Below, piece by piece: positions 3,913 through 13,272 of a stretch of DNA of 64,000 nucleotides. A program made the position numbers and the translations under genes. The notes beneath the pieces are model-generated. The model worked only from the letters and a program-made list of their open reading frames with translations. It was not told the DNA's origin and searched no databases. Origin of the DNA: Acidobacteriota bacterium (GTDB lineage: Bacteria; Acidobacteriota; Terriglobia; Bryobacterales; Bryobacteraceae); contig JAFDVS010000016.1 in NCBI GenBank assembly GCA_018268935.1, positions 1 to 64,000 of the forward strand, given 5' to 3'. Numbering within the stretch: the stretch's first letter is position 1; the number at the start of each line of letters is the position of its first letter.

Positions 3913-4228
3913 TCAGGCGATCTCGATTTTTGCGATGCGGTGTTTTTCGAGTTCGGCGAGGTTGATTTCGATGCCGAGGCCGGGGGCGGTGGGGACTGGG
4001 ATCAAGCCATCGGACTTGTCGACTTCGATGCGTTTCTTGGCGAGGCCCCAGGCCGGGCATTCGTGCGGGTGGTGGAGTTCGAACATCACTGGGGGTGCGT
4101 TCCAGGCTTTGGAGGACGAAGGGAAGTTGGCGCACCAATGGAGTTCGGCGGCGATGCGGATGGGAGTGCCCCAACTGTGCGGGACGAGGCGGACGCGGTT
4201 GAGCCAGCAGGCGTAGGAGATGCGGCGG
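3913..4228 (-). pseudogene. C-terminal remnant of an enolase-superfamily (mandelate racemase-like) enzyme
   Basis: About 105 residues read cleanly to a stop at 3913. They contain LVPHSWGTPIRIAAELHW, an MFELHHPHE block and VPTAPGLGIEI, all typical of the C-terminal end of mandelate-racemase/muconate-lactonising enzymes. The barrel and N-terminal cap are absent. Upstream coding is replaced abruptly at about 4228 by the first copy of the intergenic repeat, so the gene was cut there by deletion or by arrival of the repeat. A different, complete enolase-superfamily gene lies at 13701-14840. Confidence 0.7.
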
Positions 4229-4863
4229 CCATGGGGACAGGGTCGAAAGAAGAATGCCTCTCGCGCCTGTCGCGCCTCCGCTGCTCGTTTTGGCTCGGCA
4301 CTGCTTGTGGGCACCGATTCGGGCCGATGCCGAGTGATAGACACCGATGTCTCGCGGAGGATTCAGTGGGAATCGGGATTGGAAGGCGCGGGCTGTTCAA
4401 CGCGGCCTCTTTTCATGCATCTTCGCGGCTCGGGAGGCGCTAGCGCCCGAGCCATGGGGACAGGGTCGAAAGAAGAATGCCTCTCGCGCCTGTCGCGCCT
4501 CCGCTGCTCGTTTTGGTTCGACACTTCTTGTGGGCACCGATTCGGGCCGATGCCGAGTGATAGACACCGATGTCTCGCGGAGGATTCAGTGGGAATCGGG
4601 ATTGGGAAGCGCGGGCTATCCACGCGGCCTTCGGCCGAGGCAGGCCACATACGGCGATGACCTGCCCTACTTTTCGCGTGAATGTTGGGGCACGGGATTC
4701 CTTTTCATGCCAAAACAATGCCTCTCGCGCCTGTCGCGCCTCTGCTGCTCGTTTTGGTTCGGCACTTCTTGTGGACACCGATTCGGGCCGATGCCGAGTG
4801 ATAGACACCGATGTCTCGCGGAGGATTCAGCGGGATCGGGATTGGGAAGCGCGGGCTATCCAC
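4229..4863. repeat. Array of three imperfect copies of an intergenic repeat
   Basis: Three highly similar blocks lie at 4229-4408, 4452-4630 and 4717-4863. Copies 1 and 2 start alike at CCATGGGGACAGGGTCG and stay aligned to CGCGGCCT; copy 3 starts later, at AATGCCTCTCGCGCC. Copies 2 and 3 share the end GGCTATCCAC. Starts are spaced 223 and 241 bases apart. Each copy holds CCGATTCGGGCCGATGCC and the small palindrome AGACACCGATGTCT. Several frames stay open across the array, but the frames differ between copies, so these are not coding. No other copy was seen in the window. This stretch holds no gene. Confidence 0.85.
4427..4453. other. Strong hairpin between repeat copies 1 and 2
   Basis: GGCTCGGG pairs with CCCGAGCC, enclosing a further self-complementary CGCTAGCG core. 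It sits in the spacer just before the second repeat copy. No T-tract follows, so a simple terminator is unlikely; it may be part of the repeat element, in the manner of REP-type hairpins. Confidence 0.5.
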
Positions 4864-4868
4864 GAAAG

Positions 4869-8741: not shown

Positions 8742-8942
8742 TCATCGGTTCGGTAGGGGACTTGGAGCAGATCCCGGCGTTGTGAATGCGGGCGAGGCGC
8801 TGCGATTCCTCTTTGGCCCGAGCAGAGCCAGAGCCGCAAGACCGGCACCGAGCGACATCAGCGTGGAGGGCTCCGGTACATTGTTGACGGCGGCTATACA
8901 GAACCGTCGCCTGTGCGGAACCGGCGATCCATAAGGGATCAA
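8742..8942 (-). pseudogene. Orphan PEP-CTERM sorting tail (gene fragment)
   Basis: The frame encodes VPEPSTLMSLGAGLAALALL followed by GPKRNR, a textbook PEP-CTERM signal: the VPEP motif, a hydrophobic helix and a basic end. Such signals direct exported proteins to exosortase processing. Only about 20 unrelated residues precede it, with no signal peptide or mature domain, and the TTG at 8942 overlaps the stop of the neighbouring gene. It is best read as the surviving 3' end of a lost PEP-CTERM gene, with an extra C-terminal extension caused by decay of the stop codon. Confidence 0.6.
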
Positions 8943-9856
8943 GGCAGCGGCGGCCCGATGGGGATGAATACCTGCGTGCTTTGGATTGTCTCTGGGGAAC
9001 TGCCCCCAAGCCCAACCCAGCGATGCCGCACGAAAAAGAGACGGATCAATCCGAGTTCGACGGTGGAAGGGACAGTGAAGTTCGCCTGGAAGACACCAGC
9101 AAGCCCAGGCGCCAAACCCAGGAAACCGGGCGCCACCTCGGGAGCGCGAGTGGGGCCAACGAAGCGCATTGTGAAGTACGCCTCCGACCGAGGAAATGTA
9201 ATGGGCTCGAGCACACGTGGCACCAGTGCGGGGGGCGATGACGGAGAGGGCTCGCCGGTGGGGACCTCCGGAACGGTGCGCACGGGGATGCCGGTGAGGT
9301 AGGCGATGATGGTTTCGCCGGGACGGGCGGGGTTCTCTGCTGTGACAAGCGAGAAGTCGCTGGCGTGTTGGAATACGCCGGCGGGATTTCCTGGCCGGTA
9401 CGGGTCGAGGGGAAGGCGGAAGAAGTCTCCAGGACTACTACTACCGTGGACTATTCCCGTTCCCATAGTACCGCGGCTTCGAATGACGACTGGGACCCCC
9501 TCGGCGGTGAATTCCCTGACCCGTGGAACCTGCACGTTGATTTGTTGATAACCATTCCCGGGAGCAACGGCAAGAATGGGAGCAGGCGCGCCGCCAATGG
9601 TTACTGTCACTCCGGCAAGCTCAAAGGGCAGCGGGAATTCGCCAGCCTGTACGATGCCTTCGATTCCAGGAAGGCCGGTGCAGAAGATGGCAGCCAGCCC
9701 CCCCACAGGAGGGAGGAGTTGCTCGAAACTTGCCGCGGAAGTGACCACGACGTTTGCGATTTGACCCAAAGCGGGTTGCGCCAGTCCAAAGCAGAGGCTC
9801 GCCGCAGCGAGCCACAAGGTGGAACGACTGCGCTTGATGAGGATACGTTGCCGCAT
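8939..9856 (-). CDS. Exported protein with TIGR03437-type domain
   Basis: 305 residues with a signal peptide (SRSTLWLAAASLCFGLAQPALG). The body contains VVVTSAASFEQ, VTVTIGGAPAPILAVAPG and YQQINVQVP, which match the beta-rich TIGR03437 domain found in large numbers in Solibacter-type acidobacterial extracellular proteins. A second half with PGETIIAYLTGIP resembles a further copy of the fold. The function of the family is unknown; it is usually the C-terminal part of secreted proteins, whereas here it makes up nearly the whole protein. It lies 13 bases downstream of the CarboxypepD_reg gene and is probably co-transcribed with it. Confidence 0.85.
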   Translation of the reverse strand: MRQRILIKRSRSTLWLAAASLCFGLAQPALGQIANVVVTSAASFEQLLPPVGGLAAIFCTGLPGIEGIVQAGEFPLPFELAGVTVTIGGAPAPILAVAPGNGYQQINVQVPRVREFTAEGVPVVIRSRGTMGTGIVHGSSSPGDFFRLPLDPYRPGNPAGVFQHASDFSLVTAENPARPGETIIAYLTGIPVRTVPEVPTGEPSPSSPPALVPRVLEPITFPRSEAYFTMRFVGPTRAPEVAPGFLGLAPGLAGVFQANFTVPSTVELGLIRLFFVRHRWVGLGGSSPETIQSTQVFIPIGPPLP

Positions 9857-9869
9857 GTATGCTACCCCT

Positions 9870-10622
9870 TTACTTTGATGCTGCCGCTTGACCTTCCGCG
9901 GTCAAACCCACGATGCGAAAAACGAGGCGGAAGTCGATCGTCCGCCTCCCCGCGTTGAACATCAAAGGAACTGGAGAAACCACCGGCGGGGCAACTCGCA
10001 CGGTGCTGCGATATCCGCTCGATGCATCAATTGCTCGCCCGGTAGTGTCCGCAAGGGAGAACGCGGTGGTTCTTACGGTGATGGTGAAGGGGACGTCCGC
10101 GGGGACAATCGTCAGGAACCCGCCTGGGTCCGCAGCATCGGGTGGAATGATGCGCCGCTTTCCGTCCGAACCTGTCATGTCGACGGTAATGGGGCCCCCG
10201 GGGATCTTGCCTCGGAGTTTTTCGAGGAGTCCGTTCTGGTCGGCGAAGACGACGTTCAATGGAACGCCCCGCTGCATGGCGATTCTCGCGTCCACGGTTG
10301 AGGAGGCTACACGGGCCGGAACAGGAGAAGACCAGCTACACGTATCCAAGTAGCCGGAAAGCGCGGTGGCGCAGACTTGGTAGTTGCCGTCCTCCACTGC
10401 ATTGAGATTGTAGGCTCCCTTCTCATCGGTGATCGCACGATATGGCACGGCCCGTGCGGGATTCATCTCCGCGACAGACCGCATCGCCATCACATGTACT
10501 CCAGCCAGTGTGCCACCGGATATGGCATCGACGACGGTGCCGCGAATGACGCCCGCGCCGTGGATGGACAACCCCGCGGAGAGGAGTGTGGCGGCCAGTA
10601 GTTTCACGCCGATCTTGATCAT
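9870..10622 (-). CDS. Exported carboxypeptidase regulatory-like domain protein
   Basis: 250 residues with a signal peptide (MIKIGVKLLAATLLSAGLS). Residues 25-110 form a CarboxypepD_reg-like beta-sandwich: IRGTVVDAISGGTLAGVHV, then DEKGAYNLNAVEDGNYQV. The C-terminal half appears to be a second beta-rich region without a recognised name. A strong AAGGAGG ribosome-binding site precedes the ATG. It lies between the TIGR03437 gene and the SLH/glycosidase gene on the same strand, suggesting an operon of surface proteins. It may act in cell-surface carbohydrate or protein binding; that is inference. Confidence 0.8.
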   Translation of the reverse strand: MIKIGVKLLAATLLSAGLSIHGAGVIRGTVVDAISGGTLAGVHVMAMRSVAEMNPARAVPYRAITDEKGAYNLNAVEDGNYQVCATALSGYLDTCSWSSPVPARVASSTVDARIAMQRGVPLNVVFADQNGLLEKLRGKIPGGPITVDMTGSDGKRRIIPPDAADPGGFLTIVPADVPFTITVRTTAFSLADTTGRAIDASSGYRSTVRVAPPVVSPVPLMFNAGRRTIDFRLVFRIVGLTAEGQAAASK

Positions 10623-10642: not shown

Positions 10643-13220
10643 TCAGTCGATCGTCACACTAATGGGACCGGCCGGCGACGACGGGTACCCGTTGTAGACG
10701 TAAAGCTGCCATGGCCCGGCAGCGAGGCGCCCGCCGAGTTCAGCGCTGATCTGTGTGTAGGACTTCTCGTTGAAGGGAAGGCCGGAACCGTCGAAGGCAT
10801 AGATCCAGACATCGGTGAAGCCGGAACGAACGAACCTCAAGGAGTTTCCGCCCCATCGGGCGAAGGCGTTGCCGGTGATCTTGATTGTGTCGAATCGGCT
10901 GATGAGGGGCGAGCCGTCGCTATCGGTGACCGCGAAGACAAGTGGAGCACTCAAGGTAGTAGATTGAGCCGTGGCGGTAGTGGACGGAGCGCCACCAGCC
11001 GCCCTTGCCGTGAAGGTGTGGGTCTGCGTACCCGGCGTCGAAGGAGGATCACTGAAAGCGAACGCACAGCTTCCTGCTGGAACCGACGCAAACTGTGGCC
11101 CGGACATCCCAGAACTTTGATCTCTGCAGTCGTAACTTGCCGGGAGCGACGAACTGATCTGCCATATCGCCGTATTTGCCGCCGTCCAAACGAGTCTTGC
11201 GGGCTGCCCCGTGGTGTAGTGGGTGTTGTCGGTCTTGAAGGTTGTTATGGGTGTGGAGGTGCAAGAGGTTGAGCCGCCTTGATAGAAGTTTGTCAATGCA
11301 GTCCACGCCGGCTTGTTGCCGTCGGCTTCACGTTCGTACTTCAAGCCCCAGTAGCCGTTCCAGGCCAAGTCTTGGCCGGTTTGAAACCACGGGAAACCGC
11401 TCCACATGGTATATGGATCGTAAAGAGCCCAATAGGCGAGTTTCTGGATGCCGGCATTGGCGAATGCCGCAAGTGCGCATGTCAACCATTGTCCCTGCCC
11501 CGAGGGAGTCAACACGGGAGTATTCTCGTCGCCGTAGATTTGGACATCGTTGCCTTTTACCGCCTCCTGGGCCGGGACACCTGGTTCTTTCACGGGCGAG
11601 CCTGTGGCGAACTCGCTGACAAAAATCTTGTCGCGGTCCGGATTGAGGGCAGTCGCCGGGTTCTGGGGCGGAGACAGGAGCGAATTCAACGACGCCGAAA
11701 GGTCGAAGGAGTTCGGATGATAAACGTGCATCAAGTAGATATCCGGATCCTTGGTGTAGCCGAACGCACTGGTCAACAGGTTGCGCATGCCCTTGGCCGT
11801 TGTTTGCGCCGTTTGCCATTGCCAGACGTACTGGCTGCCGCGGGAGATCATCGGATTTCCAAACACGAGTACCATTTCGAGGTAAGTGCCGATCAGGCCC
11901 ATGATTCTTGGATTGGGGGATACCGCACGCGAGTTCTGGTCCATCAGCCGGTATGCGTCGCGCCATGCGATCGCCTTGGCGGACATGTCCGGAGGCGGTA
12001 CGACCGACCATGGGAAGCCCCACATGAGAATGTTCTTCCGTTCCCGCAGATGGTACATGAATTCGTTGGCCCACGAGGCGAATTGAGTGGCACTATTCAC
12101 CCCGGCGTTGAAGTCATTCTTGAACCGCCCGCTGGCGAAAGTCAGAGTGACATAGAGTCCCTTGGTTTCCGCTTTCTGCACGAAATCCGCGAGAGCGGTC
12201 CACTGACTCCCGCAGGACGAGGGAGAGTCCGGGTAGGGGCAGAACCCGGCAGACTCGTCGGGTCTCAATTCCTTCAGCAATGTGGTGTCCCAGAGATACA
12301 GGTGAAGCAGGTTGAAACCGCTCTGCTTGAGCATTGTCAAGTCCGCGTCCACCATCTGATGGACCGGCTGATTCGTTACGGAGTCGTTGGTGTACCAGTC
12401 GTAAAGCATGCGGAAGTAGGTGTGCAGGCGTGGAGAGTAGTTGATGCCTTTCCACTGTGTGGGGGGATTCAAATGCATCTCGACGAGAATCCGCGCATTC
12501 CAGTAGGACCACGTGACGATGCCGTCCATGACTTCCTTTGCCATCTCACCCCTTCTCGTAAAGACCCCGGAAGGGCAGAAATAACCTACAGAGCAACCGG
12601 GTGTCGCCACGAAAGGAGACACCACACCCAGGACGGCGATTCTTTGAATCCACCGGAAGTAGCCGTGGGTGCTGGGAACGTCGGAGAAGTACGGCGATTC
12701 CGGGAATTCGAAGTCGTCATTGGAGCAGGGCGCCAGGCAGTTGTTGTCGGTAACTTTGCGAGCCCTGGCGATGAATACCGCGATCTGGTAGTTTTCAATC
12801 GTTAAATCCGGACAGTACTTACGGGGAGTGGCAATGCAACCAGAGGTGATGCCCAACTCCCACATTTTCTGGATGTAGGGGAAGAACTGGTGGCCGGTGT
12901 CAACGTCGGTGAACCATGGCGTTTGGGATGGCGGCGCATAAGTTTGAAACGCCTCGGAGTCGTTCCAGCGTCTCCGGGACCACGCCCGAATGATAAAGGC
13001 CGCCATTTGGTCTCGCAGGAGACTCGAATCCGGACAATACTCGGGGGGATCGGGATTGTTGCATCCCCGTGTTATGCCAAGCGCATACATCGCTTTGGTG
13101 GGAGTGAAGTAGGGCGAGGTTGTGGGAACGTCGTTAAAGAGCTGCTGGCCAAAACCGTACGCCGGGAAGAGAAGAGAAGAGAAGAGAAGAGAAGAAGCGC
13201 AGTAGAAACATAAACTTCAT
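10643..13220 (-). CDS. Secreted SLH-domain glycosidase-like protein, out of frame at a signal-peptide pentanucleotide repeat
   Basis: The mature frame (open without an internal start up to ATG 13090) holds three SLH-type repeats, each with paired Cys (GC…YCPD). A barrel-like region follows with HLYLWDTTLLKE and IFVSEFATGS, suggesting a glycoside hydrolase, and then Ig-like C-terminal sections. ATG 13090 cannot be the true start because it lies inside the first SLH repeat: FNDVPTTSPYFTPTK is encoded just upstream in the same frame. The real start is ATG 13220, with a GAGGA site and a consensus promoter. From there the leader begins MKFMFLLR, passes through (TCTTC)6 and goes out of frame, reaching a stop after 28 codons. 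With four or seven units it would join the mature frame with a c-region PAYG. Either phase-off or a frameshift. Confidence 0.8.
13166..13195 (-). repeat. Pentanucleotide simple repeat (TCTTC)6 in the signal-peptide coding region
   Basis: Six perfect units, read as GAAGA on the plus strand, lie inside the leader codons of the SLH/glycosidase gene and encode alternating Phe, Ser and Leu. Because the unit is not a multiple of three, each gain or loss of one unit shifts the frame. The counts that join leader and mature frames are 4, 7 and 10. TCTTC is a rotation of CTCTT, the unit that controls phase variation of the Neisseria opa genes at the same position. Confidence 0.95.
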
Positions 13221-13243
13221 ACGTCCTCAACTAACGCACTGTG

Positions 13244-13272
13244 ATTATTCGCCTTTTCGATTTGATTGTCAA
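13244..13272 (-). promoter_or_regulatory. Sigma-70 type promoter of the SLH/glycosidase gene
   Basis: On the minus strand, TTGACA (13272-13267), a 17-base spacer and AATAAT (13249-13244) form a near-perfect housekeeping promoter in an AT-rich stretch. Transcription would start near 13237, giving a leader of about 17 bases that contains the GAGGA site before ATG 13220. This supports 13220 as the true gene start. Confidence 0.8.

Follow-up and report, generated by a model that had tools for sequence, protein, structure and literature searches.

A TCTTC array in the leader-coding region of an acidobacterial SLH/glycosidase-like gene as a candidate Opa-like on/off switch

The closest described counterparts of the locus reported here are the opa and pilC genes of Neisseria, the latter with a homopolymer near the 5' end. 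According to passages of PMC3960869, opa switching relies on 5'-CTCTT-3' repeats within the leader-peptide coding sequence, and gonococcal opa alleles are listed in a section of PMC5320596 in forms such as CTT(CTTCT)10CTTCC. The same section gives G9-G15 for pilC1 and pilC2 among strains and describes changes of the pilC1 tract in passaged culture (PMC5320596). Outside Neisseria, a passage of PMC6851277 describes a hypervariable repeat gene in a Gracilibacterium genome derived from a metagenome. The relevant passages further state that phase variation has been studied mainly in pathogens (PMC3711429) and that a link has been reported between long simple repeats and dependence on a eukaryotic host (PMC4060949). 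No report of phase variation in Acidobacteriota was found in the open-licence literature at the level of titles and opening lines of abstracts, and the passages obtained from PMC4060949, PMC3711429, PMC13082232 and PMC3234257 contain no acidobacterial case.

The stretch of DNA analysed here, called the window, comprises 64,000 nucleotides of an Acidobacteriota bacterium of the family Bryobacteraceae (assembly GCA_018268935.1, contig JAFDVS010000016.1, positions 1 to 64,000). On the minus strand, downstream of ATG 13220, a recount from the sequence gave six perfect TCTTC units (13195-13166) within a pure pyrimidine run of 34 bases (13197-13164). In the notation used for opa the array is CTT(CTTCT)5CTTCC (13197-13165). 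The leader ORF as assembled (13134..13220, minus strand) begins M-K-F-M-F-L-L-R-F-F-S-S-L-L-F-S-S, has a second in-frame ATG at 13211 and ends at TAA 13136-13134 after 28 codons. By the sequence and by the repeat and pyrimidine-run counts the six units (13166..13195, minus strand) fall within the hydrophobic core of the leader; they occupy codons 9-19 of the leader ORF and have a length of 5 bases that is not divisible by three, as in the 5' tracts of repeat-mediated translational phase-variable genes. Between 13216 and 10646 the mature frame contains no stop and, ahead of ATG 13090, no ATG, GTG or TTG. Because of the six units, the leader and the SLH/glycosidase-like protein are in different frames. 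All of this, the six units, the stop after 28 codons and the lack of a mature-frame start before ATG 13090, had been claimed in the preliminary description and was confirmed from the sequence. When the array was rebuilt by script with 1 to 11 units, the leader and mature frames joined at 1, 4, 7 and 10 units and were out of register at the other seven, and over this range the length of the tract sets the frame of the start codon. The earlier arithmetic, by which four or seven units would restore the frame, was right.

Compared with opa, the window tract is likewise a CTCTT-type pentamer in a leader-coding region. The unit is a rotation of CTCTT, it is found at the same place in the leader, it follows the same three-frame logic and the array has the form CTT(CTTCT)nCTTCC, so that the likeness in unit and place asserted beforehand holds against the passages of PMC5320596 and PMC3960869. 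The locus differs from opa in that its protein is SLH/glycosidase-like and belongs to another phylum, and variation is reported for opa only. The Gracilibacterium gene is similar in being a case of repeat-array variation in an uncultured environmental bacterium, but its 9-base units, as described in that part of PMC6851277, keep the frame and vary the protein, whereas the acidobacterial units of 5 bases and 1 base shift the frame.

Membership of the Opa family itself was considered and rejected, because the mature protein matches other families and its relatives are SLH/glycosidase-like. Pfam includes an Opa family, and the mature frame, searched against the whole of Pfam-A, yielded SLH alone at E 0.001.

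The mature frame (10643..13144, minus strand; stop TGA 10645-10643) runs through 833 codons without an internal stop and comprises an SLH-like region, a barrel and C-terminal beta domains. The SLH-like repeats extend over approximately residues 1-215 (12500..13144, minus strand). The name SLH/glycosidase used in the preliminary description fits the relatives of the protein but is not fully carried by the window ORF, which has a Pfam SLH score of 19.9 bits against a cut-off of 20.8; the SLH label therefore rests on relatives that pass, namely P0025 and the own-genome copy G000:C18, both with PF00395 and the latter with a score of 47.4. Approximately residues 221-627 of the 833 (11264..12484, minus strand) form a glycosidase-like TIM barrel, with the (beta/alpha)8 arrangement of the glycoside hydrolase clan A fold. 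Two glutamates, E511 and E606, show almost no variation across 22 sequences and are candidate catalytic residues. The values of dN and dS were 0.37 and 1.9 against the G008 ortholog and 0.27 and 2.9 against the own-genome paralog, with dS near saturation in both comparisons. To judge from its sequence, the body of the gene has been under constraint in the past.

Ahead of the leader there is a promoter-like site, TTGACA-17-AATAAT (13244..13272, minus strand), with 11 of 12 consensus positions matched. The near-consensus promoter noted earlier is thus real as a consensus match, with a match count of 1 against a shuffle mean of 0.6. A GAGGA Shine-Dalgarno-like site (13224..13228, minus strand) is located 3 bases before ATG 13220 and 12 before ATG 13211. 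Downstream, 20 bases past the stop of the window gene, is a gene with a CarboxypepD_reg domain (9870..10622, minus strand; Pfam, 35.6 bits), found in the same order in G008, in the own-genome paralog and in L094. It is followed by a gene with a TIGR03437 (Solibacter C-terminal) domain (8939..9856, minus strand; 81.3 bits), the order of which is kept in three relatives.

The nearest ortholog, in genome G008, is 58% identical to the window gene and has an in-frame signal-peptide-like leader, MFLRTYVLLSLSLSLSVAAQ, followed by QPLFSDVPTTSPYY. The start of this leader (L005:1435) aligns by eye with ATG 13211, and a 29-base pure-pyrimidine run, with an internal repeat that differs from TCTTC, encodes the leader core. 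The equivalent region of P0025, SPSYGQTQVFTDV, is found behind a hydrophobic core and matches PAYGFGQQLFNDV of the window, which is upstream of ATG 13090. Since the G008 leader is in frame and P0025 matches PAYGFGQQLFNDV, the natural window protein very probably starts upstream of ATG 13090 with a predicted signal peptide, a term applied here on the basis of inspection and a hydropathy window.

The tract of the window gene was found in a single allele, and the cluster of the gene's catalogue entry, P0001, has one member. Residues 1-70 of the G008 protein, used in a protein search, gave 52 matches, and a regular expression for FSSLLFSS-like cores found none in the first 45 residues of P0001-P0095. 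A contig search with a single protein gave 0 confirmed of 8 stretches. The second contig search gave two loci, the record of G008 itself and a distant locus without such a leader. The leader readout was made on rows other than minus-strand matches, the latter including L004, L006, L007, L011-L014, L019, L021, L023, L026, L028 and L032.

The rarity of the pentamer was assessed in a sample of 958,584 bases of the window's own genome (the window and 54 stretches, with approximately 6,000 bases counted twice) out of an assembly of 8,991,788 bases. The only perfect period-5 array of at least three units in this sample is the window tract, and one first-order Markov simulation of the sample gave no arrays of periods 5-8. 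Four runs in the sample consist purely of pyrimidines or purines over at least 20 bases; the window tract, with 34, is the longest and the next has 22. Three consecutive TCTTC units are present in 1 of the 12 genus genomes, the window's own, and four in 5 of 396 phylum genomes, again including the window's own, where the window tract is the sole such site of the assembly. The five four-unit tracts of the four other phylum genomes are mostly found in low-complexity stretches. Hydrophobic cores favour pyrimidine codons, and part of the pyrimidine richness of the leader is compositional.

The pentamer as a device of the whole genus or phylum was rejected, given 1 of 12 genus genomes with three units and 5 of 396 phylum genomes with four.

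Three further repeats were observed. In G385, which belongs to a different family of the phylum, an ATG-led hydrophobic stretch covers four TCTTC units (L098:1501-1520); this tract was kept out of the count because none of the neighbouring open frames reaches the cut-off of a Pfam family. The other long simple repeat of the own-genome sample is a perfect 12-base array, TTCTTCACGGCT, in G000:C138 (L056:5093-5145), with 4.4 copies of a unit that keeps the frame. Within the window, positions 4228-4864 hold a 223-base unit in tandem (2.8 copies, 85% matches).

Pairs of close alleles were obtained at two sister SLH loci of the genus. An alignment of G003:C87 with G008:C225 shows 96.2% identity across 2,968 columns and a single gap, located at the leader tract: the former has ATGAAACT followed by C10 and a mature frame without upstream start, the latter ATGAAACT followed by G plus C8, with MKLPPPAPPHASGRDRKSPNLALTLSATILIGFALSISSSRSSAFFSDVY in frame. 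Between G003:C55 and G009:C469 the identity is 90.8% over 1,022 columns; of the three gaps, each of one base, one falls at the tract, which is C10 without an in-frame start in G003:C55 and C9 with MLQHSSHPPPILVVTVCFLGLILTVPAEAQQIFSDVPP in frame in G009:C469. A third ortholog, G008:C132, has an interrupted run and an in-frame leader, but farther along it carries a 2-base gap. In G008:C225 and G009:C469 the sequence reaches a contig end, and the remainder of their bodies is elsewhere or unseen. Tract length thus differs between close alleles at two sister SLH loci, while the window tract is known from one allele. From the two pairs it follows that slippery SLH leaders of the genus differ in length between close alleles, with consequences for the frame; since the genus genomes are drafts, homopolymer lengths could be misread. 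The frame-shifting variation foretold for the pentamer was accordingly seen at the sister poly-C leaders (C87/C225 and C55/C469), not at the window tract. Of the Opa-like switch first proposed for this locus, the design and the frame arithmetic stand and the sister SLH genes vary as predicted. The pentamer itself is confined to 1 of 12 genus genomes; the recurring feature is a slippery leader whose unit type varies and is mostly poly-C. The sister loci, with C8-C10, resemble pilC in that the length of a homopolymer sets the frame. Unlike pilC, they carry C instead of G in the coding strand, encode SLH proteins and are known from assemblies.

A search for runs of at least nine C in all 12 genus genomes gave 99 sites in 11 of the 12, or 100 distinct tracts after fetching. 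Twenty-two of the 100 were at most 120 bases from a locus end, many of these at contig ends, and were excluded from the expectation, for which the other 78 were used. Four of the 100 tracts (G000:C18, G003:C55, G003:C87 and G009:C469) are located 57-115 bases before an N-terminal SLH domain on the coding strand, against an expectation of approximately 0.03, calculated with the 78 tracts and with 273 first-look candidate positions of the protein. This count is partly post hoc because one sister locus was known before the poly-C search. Since G003:C55 prompted the search and C55 and C469 are orthologs, the independent support consists of two further loci and one ortholog. Two more tracts, in G000:C98 and G008:C213, are tied to SLH genes, and one, in G003:C144, to another predicted secreted protein; the remaining tracts of at least nine C in the genus had no comparable link to SLH.

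Counted the other way round, the association is less marked: among L004-L048, which were fetched by SLH similarity before the poly-C search, a long leader tract is present in four of the ten ORFs with SLH in the first 200 codons (the window gene, G008:C27, G009:C469 and G003:C55). The six without one are found in L017, L032, L034, L041 and, twice, in L045, and some of them are fragments. A further 29 ORFs have SLH beyond codon 200 and fall outside this leader count.

Several single loci were also recorded. An SLH gene of 721 codons, G000:C98, has C9 five codons past its start, in frame, and no ortholog besides itself in the genus at E 1e-60. In G008:C213 (L164) a C10 within the first SLH repeat is in frame and codes for SPPPY. 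In G003:C144 (L166/L235) a C10 is in frame in the leader hydrophobic core of a predicted secreted protein of 511 codons, a possible non-SLH locus of the same kind. In G000:C18 (L232:2136-2537) the leader C9 is in frame, the SLH gene ends after 133 codons and a long open frame follows directly behind, so that the SLH gene looks truncated. Long poly-C runs at contig ends of G005 and G001 are probably assembly artefacts.

Taken with its leader and frames, the window tract is probably a slipped-strand on/off switch for secretion of the SLH/glycosidase-like protein. Another reading, which we consider unlikely, is a recent frameshift in one direction: after a single slip of the tract the gene would now be a young pseudogene, and switching would not be under selection. 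The window gene was indeed found in an out-of-frame copy only. Two related copies, G000:C18 and G008:C132, are broken further on, which fits decay as well as switching, and leader tracts are not universal, being missing in six of the ten N-terminal SLH ORFs. Both observations count against a switch, and decay of such SLH genes also happens in the genus. On the other side, the sole frame break of the window gene coincides with the single period-5 array in the genome sample, the sister loci show alleles both in and out of frame, with the tract as the only indel of one pair in 2,968 columns, and a pentamer array can regain its frame by slipping again, all of which speaks against a single irreversible event.

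An error of assembly or sequencing in the number of units, the real gene being in frame and always on, is very improbable. It would agree with the in-frame ortholog and with the source being a draft assembly of 169 contigs, but a whole 5-base unit would have to be wrong, and like differences occur in separate assemblies at the sister loci. Ordinary reads span a 30-base array, which also counts against such an error.

Two database entries have internal starts. The catalogue protein P0001, of 787 aa, has its start at ATG 13006, and the metagenome protein P0002, 95.6% identical to the G008 protein, has its annotated start at the Met equivalent to ATG 13090. The latter would fit an out-of-frame third allele, as a weak hint, and is given little weight because gene callers can pick wrong starts. 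That the protein is made from ATG 13090 or 13006, or by ribosomal frameshifting or re-initiation, with the leader as a short upstream ORF, agrees with these two entries but has hardly any likelihood, as G008 and P0025 both conserve the codons ahead of ATG 13090, in each case behind a signal-peptide-like leader, and a start inside the gene would truncate the first SLH repeat and remove any leader of this type.

Under the preferred reading, a slipped-strand switch, replication slippage would add or remove units of the tract. With six units ribosomes would stop at codon 28 and no protein would be exported, so the window copy would be off in the cell. If the number of units brought the two frames into register, a complete signal peptide would direct Sec export, and the SLH region would hold the protein at the surface. 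The off state would be reversible through gain or loss of units. When translation ends at codon 28, expression of the two downstream genes may be lowered by polarity. Peptides from FGQQLFNDVPTTSPYF in the exported fraction would mark cells in the on state.

The sister leaders have repeats both in and out of frame, so genes of this kind in the genus likely flip on and off at random. Whether the genus has built contingency loci of its own is, in our judgement, evenly poised: these would be SLH genes with hypermutable signal peptides, in which the slippery unit differs from locus to locus and from lineage to lineage (TCTTC, CT-rich, poly-C), giving an environmental lineage surfaces that are randomly on or off and converging in one case on the exact array form of gonococcal opa. 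As to the selective benefit of switching, phage receptors, grazing and enzyme cost are guesses. If the switch is real, automatic gene calling puts the starts of these proteins in the wrong place and drops the secretion signals, as for P0001. Uncultured acidobacteria would then carry a random surface switch at the same place as in opa, and once with the same repeat, which would indicate that selection has acted convergently on signal peptides, with phages, grazers or the expense of surface enzymes as possible sources.
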